DNA of 64,000 bases from Albimonas pacifica (GTDB lineage: Bacteria > Pseudomonadota > Alphaproteobacteria > Rhodobacterales > Rhodobacteraceae). Every line of letters starts with the position of its first letter. The stretch's first letter is position 1. Of this stretch, positions 132 through 36,684 are shown one piece after another. Under the pieces are notes generated by a model that was not told where the DNA came from, made no database searches, and saw only the letters and a list, made by a program, of their open reading frames with translations. A program made the translations under genes and the position numbers. The stretch is from contig NZ_FOQH01000009.1 of NCBI RefSeq assembly GCF_900113695.1, forward strand, positions 15,120 through 79,119, in the 5' to 3' direction.

Positions 132-338
132 GCGCCTGTTCTCCGGAGCCGTCCATCGCGGATGCCGTAAGAGCGACTCGCCCGCCCCGGTCAAGGATCG
201 CGCAGCGACCCTCCGAAGGAGGGCTTGTCCTTGACCGGGGCGGGCGAGTCGCTCAGGCATCGGACGCGATGGACGGGTCCGGAGGACAGGCGCGGGCGTC
301 TTGTTCTTGGGTGAGTCAGGAGCCCGCCGGAGGCTCCT
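132..338 (+). repeat. Large structured hairpin element, copy 1, with 3' tail
   Basis: Self-complementary element with core 132-293. Outer arms 132-147 and 278-293 pair (GCGCCTGT with ACAGGCGC). Then 149-160 pairs with 265-276, 161-166 (GATGCC) with 256-261 (GGCATC), and 173-197 with 228-252 as a perfect 25-bp stem. The apex holds two small hairpins, 198-208 (TCGC-GCA-GCGA) and 209-223 (CCCTCC-GAA-GGAGGG), joined by CTTG. A conserved tail follows (TTGTTCTTGGGTGAGTC, 301-317) with its own GGAGCC/GGCTCC hairpin. Three more copies occur at 4177, 31661 and 36408. The folding is read directly from the sequence; any function is unknown. Confidence 0.9.
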
Positions 339-4176: not shown

Positions 4177-4380
4177 GCGCCTGTTCTCCGGAGCCGTCCG
4201 TCGCGGATGCCGATCAGAGCGACTCGCCCCCTCCGGTCAGGGATCGCGAAGCGACCCCGCGAAGCGGGGCTTGTCCTTGACCGGAGGGGGCGAGTCGCTC
4301 AGGCATCAGACGCGATGGACGGATCCGGAGGACAGGCGCGGGGCCTGTTCTTGGGTGAGTCAGGAGCCCGCCGGAGGCGT
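4177..4380 (+). repeat. Large structured hairpin element, copy 2, with 3' tail
   Basis: Core 4177-4339, same architecture as copy 1. The central stem 4219-4243/4274-4298 is 25 bp with one G-T pair. Its middle octamer is CCCCCTCC against GGAGGGGG, where copy 1 has CCCGCCCC against GGGGCGGG. The apical hairpins are TCGC-GAA-GCGA and CCCCGC-GAA-GCGGGG. The TTCTTGGGTGAGTCAGGAGC tail follows. It lies in the gap between the leftward thiolase and the leftward glpX. Confidence 0.9.
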
Positions 4381-4426
4381 CTCCGGTCTCCCCCCGATGC
4401 AACGCCCCACCGCAAGCGCCCGCCAG

Positions 4427-4459
4427 CCAGGCCCGCCCGCAGGGCGCCTGCGGACCGCC
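4427..4459 (+). repeat. 33-nt REP-like dispersed repeat, copy 2
   Basis: Full-length match to the five-copy consensus (CCAGGCCCGCCCGCAGGGCG then CCTGCGGACCGCC). It lies about 50 bp past the tail of hairpin copy 2, nearly the same spacing as at copy 1. Confidence 0.8.
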
Positions 4460-25387: not shown

Positions 25388-25417
25388 CCAGGCCCGCCCG
25401 CAGGGCGCCCACGGACC
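25388..25417 (+). repeat. 33-nt REP-like dispersed repeat, copy 3
   Basis: CCAGGCCCGCCCGCAGGGCG is identical to the consensus; the 3' part is CCCACGGACC, slightly diverged. This is the only copy without a large hairpin element next to it. Confidence 0.7.
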
Positions 25418-25520
25418 TGCGAATCCCCGCCTTTCCGGCTCTCGCCCCGCCCCCGGCCCACGGGCGCCCCGCGGGCGGGCTCGGCGGGACCGCGCCCGGG
25501 GCGGGCGGAGCGCGACGCGC

Positions 25521-28664: not shown

Positions 28665-31538
28665 ATGGGACCCGGCGATCGTCTCGAGCTGATCGACGGC
28701 TCGGGCTTCATCTTCCGCGCCTATCACGCGCTGCCCGCCCTCACCCGCAAGTCCGACGGACTGCCCGTCGGCGCGGTGGCGGGCTTCTGCAACATGCTCC
28801 AGAAGATCCTCGAGGCGCGCGCCGCCAACGACGCCGAGGCCCCGACCCACGCCGCGGTGATCTTCGACTACTCGGCGAAGACCTTCCGCAACGACATCTA
28901 CCCCGAATACAAGGCCCACCGGCCGGAGCCTCCGGAAGACCTGCGCCCCCAGTTCGCCCTGATCCGCGACGCCACCCGCGCCTTCAACCTGCCCTGCATC
29001 GAGATGGAGGGCTATGAGGCCGACGACCTGATCGCCACCTACGCCCGCCAGGCGGAGGCCGCAGGGGCGAAGGTCTCGATCGTCAGCTCCGACAAGGACC
29101 TGATGCAGCTCGTCACCGACGCGGTCTCGATCGTGAAGCCCGGCCTGAAGGGCGGCGCCGACGAGATCATCGGCGCCGACGGCGTGCGCGAGAAGTTCGG
29201 CGTGGGGCCGGATCGGGTGGTCGACGTGCAGGCGCTGGCCGGCGACTCGGTCGACAACGTCCCCGGCGCCCCGGGGATCGGCCTGAAGACCGCGGCGCTG
29301 CTGATCAACGAATACGGCGACCTCGACACGCTCCTCGCCCGCGCCGAGGAGATCAAGCAGCCCAAGCGCCGCCAGACCCTGATCGACAACGCAGACCAGG
29401 TGCGCATCTCCCGCGAGCTGGTGACGCTCTGCGCCGAGGTCCCGGTCGAGGAGCCGCTGGACGACTTCGCCCTGCGCGACCCGGACCCCGAAACCCTGCT
29501 GGGCTTCCTGCGGCTGATGGAGTTCCGCACCCTCACCGCCCGCGTCGCCGAGCGGCTGGGCGTCACCGACCTCCCCGCCCCCGCCGCCCCCGAGGGCGCG
29601 AGCCCGGAGGCCAGGGGCGAGACCGGCGGCAAGGCCGCGGACGCCCTGCCCGCCGAGGACTGGCGCGACCCCGCCCTGACCGCCCCCATCGACCCCTCGA
29701 CCTACGAGATCGTGCGCGACGCCGACGCCCTGCGCGCCTGGATCGCCCGGATCGAGGACCGCGGCGAGGTCGCCATCGACACCGAGACCACCTCCCTCGA
29801 CGAGATGGTGGCCGAGCTCGTCGGCGTCTCCCTCTCCGTCACGCCGGGCGAGGCCTGCTACGTCCCCCTCGCCCACATGACCGGCGACGGCGACCTGCTG
29901 GGCGCGGCCGAGAAGGCCCCCGGCCAGATGGACCGCGAGGAGGCGCTGGAGATCCTGCGCCCGATGCTGGTGGATCCTGCGATCCTCAAGATCGGCCAGA
30001 ACCTGAAATACGACCTCAAGGTGCTCGCCCGCCACGGCACGCCGGTCAGCCCCATCGACGACACCATGCTGATCTCCTACGCGCTCGACGCAGGCCTGCA
30101 CGGGCACGGCATGGACACGCTCTCGGACAAGCATCTCGACCATCGCCCGATCCCGATCAAGGACCTCCTGGGGACCGGCAAGGCCGCGATCACTTTCGAC
30201 CGGGTCGAGATCGACAAGGCCGCCCCCTACGCCGCTGAGGACGCCGACGTCACGCTCCGCCTGCACCGGATCCTCAAGCCGCGCCTCGCGCGCGAGGGCC
30301 TCGCCTCGGTCTACGAGGTGATGGAGCGCCCCCTGGTCCCCGTGCTGGCGCAGATGGAGATGGCCGGCATCAAGGTCGACCGCCAGCACCTGAGCCGCCT
30401 CTCGGGCCGCTTCGCCCAGCGCATGGCCGGCCTCGAGGCCGAGATCCACCAGCTGGCGGGCGACAAGTTCAACGTCGGGTCCCCCAAGCAGCTCGGCGAG
30501 ATCCTGTTCGAGAAGATGGACCTCCCCGGCGGCAAGAAGGGCAAGAACGGCGCCTGGGGCACCGGCGCCGACGTGCTCGAGACGCTGGCCGCCGAGCAGG
30601 GCTCCGAGCTCGCCTCGCGAGTGCTGGACTGGCGCCAGGTCTCGAAGCTGAAATCCACCTACACCGACGCCCTGCAGGAGCATATCAACCCCGAGACGGG
30701 GCGCGTGCACACCTCCTTCAGCCTGGCCGCGACCACCACCGGGCGGCTCGCCTCGACCGATCCCAACCTTCAGAACATCCCCGTGCGCACCGAGATGGGC
30801 CGCGAGATCCGCGCGGCCTTCATCGCCGAGCCCGGGAACGTGATCCTGTCGCTCGACTACTCCCAGATCGAACTGCGCATCCTCGCCCATATCGCGGGCA
30901 TCGAGGCGCTGAAGCAGGCGTTCAGGGATGGCCAGGACATCCACGCGATGACCGCCTCCGAGGTCTTCGGCGTGCCGATGGCGGAGATGACGCCCGAGAT
31001 CCGCCGCCAGGCCAAGGCGATCAACTTCGGCGTGATCTACGGCATCTCGGCCTTCGGGCTCTCCAACAACCTGCGCATCCCACGCGACGAGGCCAAGGCC
31101 TTCATCGACGCCTATTTCGAGAAGTTCCCCGGCATCAAGGCCTACATGGACGCGACCGTCGCGGGGGCGAAGGAGACCGGCTACGTCTCCACCCTCTTCG
31201 GCCGGCGCATCCACACGCCCGAGATCGGCGCCAAGGGTCCGCGCGCCGGTTTCGCCCAGCGCGCGGCGATCAACGCCCCGATCCAGGGCTCGGCCGCCGA
31301 CATCATCCGCCGCGCGATGATCCGGGTGCCCGCCGCGATGGCCAAGGCCGGACTCGCCGGCCGCATGCTCCTCCAGGTCCACGACGAGCTTCTCTTCGAG
31401 GTCCCTGAAGCGGAGGCCGAGGCCACCATCGCCACGGTCCGCAAGACCATGGAGGGCGCGGCCCTCCCCGCCGTCGACCTCGCCACGCCCCTGGTGGTCG
31501 ACGCCGGCCAGGGCGCGAGCTGGGCCGAGGCGCACTGA
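28665..31538 (+). CDS. polA: DNA polymerase I
   Basis: 957-aa PolA for Okazaki-fragment processing and repair. An N-terminal 5'-3' exonuclease domain (about 1-300, GSGFIFRAYHALP, YEADDLIATYA, SSDKDLMQLV) is followed by an intact 3'-5' proofreading domain (Asp372/Glu374 in AIDTETTS, YAAEDADVTLRLH). The polymerase domain has motif A LDYSQIELR (Asp731), motif B RRQAKAINFGVIYG and motif C VHDELLFE (Asp907). The proofreading site is kept, unlike in some bacteria. The ATG has a strong ACAGGAGG box. Hairpin copy 3 begins about 120 nt after its stop. Confidence 0.97.
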   Translation: MGPGDRLELIDGSGFIFRAYHALPALTRKSDGLPVGAVAGFCNMLQKILEARAANDAEAPTHAAVIFDYSAKTFRNDIYPEYKAHRPEPPEDLRPQFALIRDATRAFNLPCIEMEGYEADDLIATYARQAEAAGAKVSIVSSDKDLMQLVTDAVSIVKPGLKGGADEIIGADGVREKFGVGPDRVVDVQALAGDSVDNVPGAPGIGLKTAALLINEYGDLDTLLARAEEIKQPKRRQTLIDNADQVRISRELVTLCAEVPVEEPLDDFALRDPDPETLLGFLRLMEFRTLTARVAERLGVTDLPAPAAPEGASPEARGETGGKAADALPAEDWRDPALTAPIDPSTYEIVRDADALRAWIARIEDRGEVAIDTETTSLDEMVAELVGVSLSVTPGEACYVPLAHMTGDGDLLGAAEKAPGQMDREEALEILRPMLVDPAILKIGQNLKYDLKVLARHGTPVSPIDDTMLISYALDAGLHGHGMDTLSDKHLDHRPIPIKDLLGTGKAAITFDRVEIDKAAPYAAEDADVTLRLHRILKPRLAREGLASVYEVMERPLVPVLAQMEMAGIKVDRQHLSRLSGRFAQRMAGLEAEIHQLAGDKFNVGSPKQLGEILFEKMDLPGGKKGKNGAWGTGADVLETLAAEQGSELASRVLDWRQVSKLKSTYTDALQEHINPETGRVHTSFSLAATTTGRLASTDPNLQNIPVRTEMGREIRAAFIAEPGNVILSLDYSQIELRILAHIAGIEALKQAFRDGQDIHAMTASEVFGVPMAEMTPEIRRQAKAINFGVIYGISAFGLSNNLRIPRDEAKAFIDAYFEKFPGIKAYMDATVAGAKETGYVSTLFGRRIHTPEIGAKGPRAGFAQRAAINAPIQGSAADIIRRAMIRVPAAMAKAGLAGRMLLQVHDELLFEVPEAEAEATIATVRKTMEGAALPAVDLATPLVVDAGQGASWAEAH

Positions 31539-31560: not shown

Positions 31561-31590
31561 GGCCCACAGGCGCCCTGCGGGCGGGCCTGG
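31561..31590 (-). repeat. 33-nt REP-like dispersed repeat, copy 4 (reversed)
   Basis: Reverse complement of the consensus (CAGGCGCCCTGCGGGCGGGC then CTGG). It lies 70 bp before hairpin copy 3, the opposite side and orientation from the other copies. It folds into a short hairpin and may help end the polA transcript. Confidence 0.75.
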
Positions 31591-31660: not shown

Positions 31661-31860
31661 GCGCCTGTTTCCCGGAGCCGTCCGTCGCTGATGCCGATCA
31701 GAGCGACTCGCCGGGAGCGGTCAAGGATCGCGAAGCGACCCGCGCTTGCGCGGGCTTGTCCTTGACCGCTCCCGGCGAGTCGCTCAGGCATCTTCAGCGA
31801 CGGGCGGATCCGGGGAACAGGCGCGGCCCTGTTTCCGGGTGAGATCCCGAGCGTCCCCTC
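31661..31860 (+). repeat. Large structured hairpin element, copy 3, with 3' tail
   Basis: Core 31661-31824. It is the most diverged copy but still fully paired. The central stem 31703-31727/31759-31783 is a perfect 25 bp with middle octamer CCGGGAGC against GCTCCCGG, unlike the other copies. The apical hairpin is CCCGCG-CTTG-CGCGGG. The lower stem has CGCTGA/TCAGCG where the others have CGCG/CGCG, and the outermost stem has TTCCCGGA/TCCGGGGA. The tail (TGTTTCCGGGTGAGATCC) has drifted too. It lies between polA and the serine hydrolase gene. Confidence 0.9.
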
Positions 31861-31939
31861 GCTCCGCAAACGCGCGCCCCACGCAATCGTGCGCCCCCGC
31901 GCGCTGACGCGCGGCCGCGCCGCCGCTATCTCCCTCGGC

Positions 31940-32959
31940 ATGACCCTGACCCGCCGCCCCGTCCTCGCCGCCCTTCTGGCCGCCGTCGCCGCCCCCGCGA
32001 TTCTGCGCGCCCGCGCGCTCGCCGAGGCCGACCTCGCCCCAGCCGCCGCCCGCGCCTCGGAGCTCGGGCAGCTGCACGCCCTCGCCGTCGCCCACCGGGG
32101 CGAGACGATCTACGCCCGCGCCTTCCGCGGCCCCGCGCCGGAGCGTCCGGTGAACGTGAAGTCGGTCTCCAAGACCATCGTCGCCGCGCTGGCCGGCGCC
32201 GCCATCGACCGCGGGATCCTGGAGGGGCCCGGGCAGACCCTCGCCTCCGCCGCGCCCTCGCTGATCCCGCAAGGGGCCGACCCGCGCGTCGCGCGGATCA
32301 CGCTGGGCGACCTGCTGAGCCTGCGCGCGGGGCTCGAGCGCACCTCCGGCCCCGGCTACGGCCCCTGGGTGCAGAGCTCGAACTGGGTCCGCCACGCCCT
32401 CACCCGCCCCTTCGTGGACGCGCCGGGGGGGCGAATGCTCTACTCCACCGGCTCCACCCACGTGCTGGGCGCCGTCATCGCCGAGGCCGCGGGCCGCGAC
32501 CTGCGCGCCCTCGCGCGGGCCTGGCTGGGCGAGCCGCTCGACATCGCCTTCCCCCCCTGGACCCGCGACCCCCAGGGCCGGTTCATGGGCGGCAACAACA
32601 TGGCGATGTCCCCGCTCGAGATGCTGCGCTTCGGCGAGATGGCGCGCCAGGGCGGCCGCTGGCAGGGCGCGCAGGTGCTGCCGCAGAGCTGGCTCGAGGC
32701 CTCCTGGACCCCGCGCGGCCGCTCGCCCTTCTCGGGCGACGCCTACGGCTACGGCTGGTTCCTCTCCGAGGCCCGCGGCCACCCGCTCGCCTACGCCCGC
32801 GGCTACGGCGGCCAGGCGATCTACGTGATCCCCGAGCTGGAGCTGACGGTCGCCGTCACCTCCGACCCCGACCGCCCCGCCCGCTCGCAAGGCCATTTCG
32901 GAGACCTCAACGCCCTCGTGGCCGACGAGATCGTGCCCGCCGCCGAACGCCTCGCCTGA
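31940..32959 (+). CDS. Exported serine hydrolase of the beta-lactamase fold
   Basis: 339-aa class C beta-lactamase/esterase-fold protein. The N-terminus TRRPVLAALLAAVAAPAILRARALA is a signal peptide, possibly Tat-type given the twin Arg. The catalytic SxxK is Ser75-Val-Ser-Lys78, with a Tyr168-Ser-Thr element where class C enzymes have YxN. A C-terminal GYGGQAIYVIPE is usual in this group. Such proteins are esterases or D-amino-acid peptidases more often than true lactamases; substrate unknown. The ATG at 31940 is chosen because the signal peptide starts there. Confidence 0.82.
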   Translation: MTLTRRPVLAALLAAVAAPAILRARALAEADLAPAAARASELGQLHALAVAHRGETIYARAFRGPAPERPVNVKSVSKTIVAALAGAAIDRGILEGPGQTLASAAPSLIPQGADPRVARITLGDLLSLRAGLERTSGPGYGPWVQSSNWVRHALTRPFVDAPGGRMLYSTGSTHVLGAVIAEAAGRDLRALARAWLGEPLDIAFPPWTRDPQGRFMGGNNMAMSPLEMLRFGEMARQGGRWQGAQVLPQSWLEASWTPRGRSPFSGDAYGYGWFLSEARGHPLAYARGYGGQAIYVIPELELTVAVTSDPDRPARSQGHFGDLNALVADEIVPAAERLA

Positions 32960-36407: not shown

Positions 36408-36625
36408 GCGCCTGTTCTCCGGAGCCGTCCATCGCGGATGCCGTAAGAGCGACTCGTCCGCCCCGGTCAAGGATCGCGCAGCGACCGGCGAAGCCGGCTT
36501 GTCCTTGACCGGGGCGGGCGAGTCGCTCAGGCATCAGACGCGATGGACGGCTCCGGAGAACAGGCGCGGGCTTGTTCTTGGGTGAGTCCGGAGCCCGCCG
36601 GAGGCTCCCCCCTCCCCCATCCCTC
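36408..36625 (+). repeat. Large structured hairpin element, copy 4, with 3' tail
   Basis: Core 36408-36567, very close to copy 1. The outermost stem is perfect here (CTCCGGA/TCCGGAG, GAACAGGCGC). The central 25-bp stem has one G-T pair (CGTCCG against CGGGCG). The second apical hairpin is shorter, CCGGC-GAA-GCCGG. The tail CTTGTTCTTGGGTGAGTC is kept. It lies between the methyltransferase gene and hemH. Confidence 0.9.
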
Positions 36626-36651: not shown

Positions 36652-36684
36652 CCAAGCCCGCCCGCAGGGCGCCTGCGTCCCGCC
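36652..36684 (+). repeat. 33-nt REP-like dispersed repeat, copy 5
   Basis: CCAAGCCCGCCCGCAGGGCG then CCTGCGTCCCGCC. It follows the tail of hairpin copy 4 at nearly the same distance as at copies 1 and 2. Confidence 0.75.

Follow-up and report, generated by a model that had tools for sequence, protein, structure and literature searches.

A dispersed family of long intergenic hairpins in Albimonas with a three-part heptamer match and strand-asymmetric mispairing

The REP-derived RNA naRNA4/REP325 of Escherichia coli takes a cruciform shape and works with HU; it is compared here by its general description with an element of Albimonas that is known from its DNA sequence alone. REPs themselves are palindromes of 20-40 bp that sit for the most part between genes in unidirectional or convergent arrangement, and those of the CGTC superfamily are apparently without a dedicated transposase (PMC3733652). 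The MITE-like repeats Correia/NEMIS, ERIC and RUP form units of about 100-200 bp in which a strand folds into a long stem-loop, and the CIR repeats of about 110 bp consist of two arms and a linker, with GANTC at a terminal loop (both as summarised in PMC2229807). In Bradyrhizobium, Br-REP1 and Br-REP2 are palindromes repeated in alphaproteobacterial 3' UTRs (PMC5082802).

Here we describe a family of long hairpins, four copies of which reside in a stretch of 64,000 nucleotides from Albimonas pacifica (contig NZ_FOQH01000009.1; hereafter the window). With the REPs and BIMEs of the GTAG and CGTC superfamilies, as outlined in PMC3733652, this family shares the character of dispersed intergenic palindromes and a similar gene context: the copies are numerous, intergenic and seldom placed between divergent genes. 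It differs from them in its hairpin of about 160 nt set in a composite unit of about 330 nt, in its T-shaped apex and in a tail that repeats the 5' arm, and it has neither a Y1 transposase (0 of 11 genomes) nor the length of 20-40 bp that mark the REP/RAYT system. Unit size and the long stem-loop are reminiscent of Correia/NEMIS, ERIC and RUP as these are summarised in PMC2229807, and the outer arms, GCGCCTGT/ACAGGCGC, form terminal inverted repeats of the kind by which MITEs are recognised; unlike those repeats, the Albimonas element shows a three-way match between segments that we call L, R and T. The CIR repeats of Caulobacter and Brucella are likewise alphaproteobacterial intergenic repeats with GANTC sites, but the summary given of them sets them apart, since the Albimonas element is one long hairpin with a T-shaped apex whose GANTC sites (GAGTC/GACTC, noted by eye) lie in the stems, as well as in many of the tails. 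The consensus sequences of Br-REP1 and Br-REP2 printed in PMC5082802 are, by eye, unlike it. On balance we lean towards regarding the element as a large non-autonomous dispersed intergenic repeat, REP- or MITE-like but forming a family of its own, which is kept as a fold of a single strand (RNA or ssDNA).

The four hairpins of the window (160-164 nt) are located at 132-293, 4177-4339, 31661-31824 and 36408-36567, all on the + strand, precisely at the positions and in the common direction given by the initial annotation. Its description of their layout was also borne out: an outer stem (GCGCCTGT/ACAGGCGC) is followed by a second stem, a GATGCC/GGCATC clamp, a long central stem (28 pairs in the consensus) and two small apical hairpins. 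Copy 1 folds with -147.1 kcal/mol, compared with a mean of -74.5 for shuffled sequences (z = -15.3), and none of 200 dinucleotide shuffles folded as well.

The conserved unit extends beyond the hairpin, which has a left flank before it and, after it, a tail that repeats the 5' arm, a second small hairpin and, about 90 nt downstream, a small REP-like repeat. In copy 1 (all parts on the + strand) a partly conserved, GC-rich left flank ending in CCGGGA (72-131) precedes the long hairpin with its 5' arm, T-shaped apex and 3' arm; then come the tail (302-315; TGTTCTT followed by GGGTGAG), a repeat of the start of the 5' arm, the second small hairpin GGAGCCCGCCGGAGGCTCC (319-337) and the small REP-like repeat AAGCCCGCCCGCAGGGCGCC (384-403), which also occurs alone elsewhere. 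The tail, second hairpin and REP-like repeat are found, again on the + strand, at 4346-4359, 4363-4381 and 4429-4448 in copy 2, and at 36573-36586, 36590-36608 and 36654-36673 in copy 4. Copy 3 carries the variant heptamer TGTTTCC both in its hairpin and in its tail (31830-31843, + strand), after which neither the second small hairpin nor the REP-like repeat was found. This copy lies between a DNA polymerase I gene (28665-31538) and a PF00144 (beta-lactamase-like) gene (31889-32959). Across a set of 88 copies, the tail motif stands 4-9 nt 3' of the hairpin in 87 (the exception is a copy cut by the end of its stretch), the second small hairpin is present in 68, and the small repeat in 78, 65 of which have it 84-94 nt downstream; the left flank is partly conserved, in two main forms ending in CCGGGA or TCGCAAA. 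The small repeat constitutes a family in its own right, with 190 sites in the genome of the window when up to 2 mismatches are allowed (78 forward, 112 reverse), some of them in close pairs on opposite strands. One such pair is situated away from the long hairpin at 25390-25409 (+) and 25463-25482 (-), as is a further site at 31569-31588 (-).

The initial annotation spoke of a four-copy family, a figure that proved far too low: the genome of the window alone (6.02 Mb; G000) holds at least 99 copies, counting those that are distinct, full-length and provided with 900-nt flanks on both sides. A 220-base query yielded at least 40 scored copies in this genome, and the arm-plus-tail pattern ACAGGCGC-N(0-12)-TGTTCTTGGGTGAG had 73 exact matches (33 forward, 40 reverse), against 0 for the reversed pattern used as a control. 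The abundance is lineage-specific, with at least 138 distinct copies in the second genome of the genus (G001) and one weak match (E = 2e-4) in the third (G002). Albimonas is placed in the Paracoccaceae, Rhodobacterales (NCBI taxonomy). The covariance model that had been proposed at the outset was built from 33 copies and run on 295 genomes of the bacterial family; 16 of them match at E <= 0.001, half of these (8/16) in the apical core alone. A few copies occur in some further genera of the bacterial family, and in four genomes from other genera (G022, G241, G276 and G279) the long form is accompanied by a matching tail.

A search of the window against Rfam 15 at gathering scores returned tRNA as its sole match and none for any hairpin copy, while a lax search with copy 1 gave four matches, none of them convincing (best E = 0.31); a known Rfam RNA is therefore rejected for the window copies. 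We also rejected a plasmid or phage home of the element, which had no match in a plasmid and a phage collection; one copy from G241 had none in the plasmid collection. Among the papers listed on alphaproteobacterial and Rhodobacterales intergenic repeats and REPs, no title or abstract opening describes the family. The family is new to the Rfam release searched and, at that level, to the literature surveyed; its kind, the intergenic palindromic repeat, is already known, and what is unusual is the three-part matching rule together with the strand asymmetry. Two outcomes that the initial annotation had named as adverse, namely that the four copies would stand alone without conserved structure elsewhere, or that they would match a known Rfam family, thus did not occur, many structured copies being present elsewhere.

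The fold itself is strongly conserved. In the alignment of 33 copies, which were drawn from the top of the match lists, standard pairs occupy 99.3% of the pair cells, compared with 92.5% after shuffling and at most 42.7% when slid by 1-3 columns; changes on both sides are seen in 19 of 65 pairs, and 0 of 500 shuffles reached any of the pairing measures. Such compensatory changes support maintenance of the fold by selection. Mispairs, moreover, are distributed unequally between the strands. Read on the sense strand, 118 distinct copies contain 288 G·T (G·U) cells and 20 A·C cells, 8 of which fall in one pair, besides 53 other mismatches and 57 gapped cells; when three columns rich in G·T are left out, the ratio is 71 to 20. 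Of the 118 copies, 100 have a sense fold that is stabler than the antisense fold; the same holds for 11 of 11 copies found in other genera, whose G·U pairs number 69 on the sense and 18 on the antisense strand. Since an A·C at this strand is a G·T at the opposite one, a double-stranded palindrome should show no difference, and the large excess of sense G·U over A·C suggests that the target of selection is a single strand in its folded form, either RNA or ssDNA. A strand-biased mutation process may also have produced the G·U asymmetry; sense-strand variation between A and G, and not only between C and T, is seen in several of the variable columns.

These data bear on the three options raised by the initial annotation, of which the mobile element is now favoured, the structured RNA is possible, and the plain double-stranded DNA site is disfavoured by the mispair asymmetry. 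A double-stranded palindrome or cruciform bound by a nucleoid or chromosome-organising protein would suit a dispersed intergenic palindrome of great length whose arms are conserved in primary sequence; a palindromic duplex, however, has no preferred strand, in conflict with the G·T and A·C counts, and presence within the one genus is patchy, so that we consider such a site improbable. The main rival to our preferred reading is a structured RNA with a host function, in which a sense transcript, arising by read-through or from its own promoter, would fold, be processed and act on neighbouring mRNAs or on the nucleoid, the 3' arm switching between the 5' arm and the tail. Tolerance of G·U on the sense strand and compensatory changes are typical of RNA, whereas the single weak match in another genome of the same genus, the very uneven copy number between genomes and the lack of an Rfam relative argue against it; we rate it as possible, though not as the probable answer.

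Three segments of the unit obey a matching rule. In L, with which the 5' arm begins, a heptamer precedes CGGAGC; T, with which the tail begins, has the same heptamer and continues with TGGTGA in the other genera and, in most copies of the Albimonas type, with GGGTG or TGGTG; and R, in the 3' arm, pairs with L. The first six letters of L and T agree in 117 of 118 Albimonas-type copies, and wherever L is a variant in such copies T has the same variant (8/8), whereas the seventh letter differs (C vs T) in 94 of the 118. Among 11 copies from four other genera, which display seven heptamer versions (two of them also present in Albimonas-type copies), L equals T over seven letters in all 9 for which our script found T; in the other 2 the tail straddles the cut and, by eye, reads TTCGTTC as in L. 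R can pair with the T of its own copy at a mean of 9.1 of 10 positions (127 copies), compared with 7.5 of 10 for the T of another heptamer class, a difference that speaks for the host-function RNA. Because L, T and the pairing partner of R coincide, both an alternative pairing within a single strand and the core of a two-ended crossover fit the data. That L and T are identical, over six letters in Albimonas and over seven in the other genera, is what one would look for in a crossover core, and the fused L/T site described below fits this idea, but R:T pairing would explain the match equally well.

Neighbouring genes, called by a custom codon-usage script, are convergent at 69 and divergent at 13 of the 175 classified copies of G000 and G001 (p = 2e-10), i.e. 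the element avoids spaces holding two promoters. At the 93 copies flanked by co-directional genes, 54 are in sense and 39 in antisense orientation (p = 0.15). Without a clear direction relative to genes, sense transcription by the upstream gene is not required, and orientation does not distinguish RNA from ssDNA; the lack of a significant bias nevertheless weighs somewhat against an RNA with a host function. The 69 convergent sites might also be explained by a two-way transcription terminator or mRNA-end protector acting between convergent genes. We hold this to be unlikely, as no four-T run occurs within 40 nt past the hairpin in any of the 87 copies checked, 13 copies lie between divergent genes, and the size, the conserved T-shaped apex, the tail and the concerted evolution of the element go beyond the needs of a terminator.

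Among contigs with at least five copies, the split between strands is uneven from one contig to another (p = 0.004 in G000, p = 0.003 in G001). Adjacent copies show no significant tendency to share a strand (p = 0.37 and 0.20). An orientation by replication strand, as judged by GC skew, was rejected: the link was strong at an early stage but mostly disappeared once 600 nt round the copies had been masked (G000, Fisher p = 0.012 and Spearman p = 0.24; G001, p = 0.58), and we therefore regard it as largely an effect of the C-rich flanks.

Comparison of the two copy-rich genomes indicated that positions can be kept while sequences are swapped. When 27 copies of G001 were compared with 91 of G000, at least 14 had flanks in common with a G000 copy (11 on both sides, 3 on one), with 81.6-94.3% identity in the aligned flanks, and all four window copies belong to these pairs. 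The retention of some positions between species would suit an RNA with a host function. The copies themselves have a mean identity of 83.3% between orthologues, 82.9% over all cross-genome pairs, 84.4% within G000 and 85.5% within G001. Sites differ in how many of the other G000 copies resemble the G001 copy more than the orthologue does: nearly all at some (86 of 90 for window copy 4) and few at others (6 of 90 for window copy 3, whose rare heptamer is retained in G000 and G001 alike). The tail reads CTTGGG in 72 and CTTTGG in 6 of the 91 G000 copies, as against CTTTGG in 16 and CTTGGG in 6 of the 27 from G001, and this genome-specific difference is visible in 9 of the 14 orthologous pairs. 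Orthologues being no more alike than other cross-genome pairs, the copies evolve in concert, and gene conversion or another form of exchange between copies appears to be the best account of this pattern. A burst just before speciation would not easily yield the concerted difference in the tails.

Missing hairpins and REARRANGEMENTS were observed in G000 when it was compared with 20 kb of G001 in which three copies lie. One of these has a counterpart in G000. The second site has no hairpin there and measures 142 nt instead of 393, with poor alignment at its junction. At the third, which holds a full copy in G001, the left flank in G000 is followed by AGCGCCTGTTCTCTGGTGGGTCAGGAGC, in which the start of L is fused to the rest of T and the hairpin is absent. 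This remnant could be a simple slippage deletion between short direct repeats. Fused sites proved rare in the sample screened, which is biased towards full copies: there was one clear case among four candidates in 0.64 Mb of G000, none among three candidates in 0.48 Mb of G001, and no candidate in 0.15 Mb of G002. Another 20-kb stretch of G001 contains five copies, two with and three without counterparts in G000; two of the unmatched copies enclose a segment that has the inverse orientation in G000, and beside the remaining one a neighbouring gene is likewise absent from that genome. Furthermore, the G000 block that aligns with 200 kb of G001 ends at window position 36586, just past copy 4, in a synteny break. 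Neither a target-site duplication nor a clean insertion junction was obtained at the two hairpin-less sites (one poorly aligned, one an L/T fusion), and G002, although it has syntenic counterparts of the genes at window copies 1 and 2, is too diverged for the junction of a clean empty site. Taken together, the patchy presence, the hairpin-less sites, the copies at the inversion and synteny break and the fused remnant point to a repetitive and probably mobile element.

How such an element might move is constrained by the search for Y1_Tnp (PF01797), which had no match at E <= 0.001 in G000 and ten other genomes of the bacterial family (G002 and nine with a covariance-model match, of which G205 and G210 match in the core only), whereas 5 of 14 control genomes had one. 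An ordinary REP or BIME moved by a RAYT, i.e. a Y1 tyrosine transposase, would agree with high-copy intergenic palindromes and with a scarcity of divergent neighbours, features that PMC3733652 reports for REPs, but this result, and a length of 160 nt instead of 20-40 bp, make it very unlikely. A RAYT-driven REP in these genomes today is rejected by the absence of Y1_Tnp from the 11 genomes searched, and only a past, lost RAYT would save such a reading.

Under the explanation that we favour, a non-autonomous repeat kept as a single-strand fold, the folded sense strand would be the form acted on, either by an enzyme supplied in trans or by the recombination machinery of the cell. L and T would be the two ends between which the hairpin is lost or exchanged, copying or gene conversion between copies would homogenise them, and copies would be tolerated in the intergenic space between gene 3' ends. 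Most likely, long-lived intergenic sites exchange the element among themselves, and it is sometimes lost via its L/T repeats. Against this stand the lack of a Y1_Tnp mobiliser in the 11 genomes, of a target-site duplication or clean junction at the sites examined, and of agreement between L and T in the seventh letter of most Albimonas-type copies. More speculatively, and with considerable doubt, one may think of a new class of mobile element, in which a folded single strand would undergo site-specific crossover within a heptamer that is free to vary; L and T would then be attachment ends, R would enforce L by pairing, the agent would be an enzyme unrelated to Y1/RAYT or host replication machinery, and traffic among about 100 long-lived sites would keep the copies alike.

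Large bacterial repeat families with neither a RAYT nor a recognisable parent pose an open puzzle as to how they are copied and retained. The present family offers several handles on it, i.e. a strand-specific fold, a heptamer that matches in three places, and two sequenced relatives with swapped copies at the same sites. The matching rule is directly testable, and such a test would separate RNA from ssDNA mechanisms.

An exact-pattern scan with the apical core (GTCAAGG...CTTGYCCTTGAC) found at least 107 stretches, a number to be read against roughly 100 chance matches expected in the whole collection by rough arithmetic, as the pattern itself fixes much of the core. The 80 loci listed include long hairpins of Oscillospiraceae, Bradyrhizobium, Burkholderiaceae and others, and 29 of these 80 passed a strict two-hairpin test. 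Strand asymmetry is absent from these 29 cores, a mixed set from other phyla (17/29), which counts against the repeat kept as a single-strand fold. Rfam gave no match at the core of 16 foreign loci. We treat a single family extending across phyla as a lead and not as a claim.

Several of the foreign loci have conspicuous neighbours. Six loci of Burkholderiaceae and of Bradyrhizobium or related genomes (L193, L216, L243, L251, L181 and L187; Pfam was checked for one) have an IS110-like gene at a distance of about 350-450 nt from the core, and an annotated IS110 gene adjoins the core in two (L345, L346) of six plasmid matches opened. IS110 was rejected as a part of the element, since the side of the gene is not constant, which suggests insertion next to the palindrome. 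In Oscillospiraceae and other Clostridia, long hairpins have a very similar T-shaped apex (L186, L211, L213, L221, L236, L239, L242, L246 and L248), and at L211 and L239 a ParB-like gene, recognised by eye, adjoins the hairpin. In three genera a core hairpin is placed between the genes for betaine-aldehyde dehydrogenase and choline dehydrogenase (L051, L055 and L063); a conserved host site was considered and rejected, as the outer arms differ and a single ancestral element is thus not shown. Finally, a hairpin with the same apex is carried by the 2.3-kb plasmid pYQ39 of Pseudomonas putida, where it is located (L344, 386-442) with rep on one side and a gene annotated as a HigA-family antitoxin on the other.
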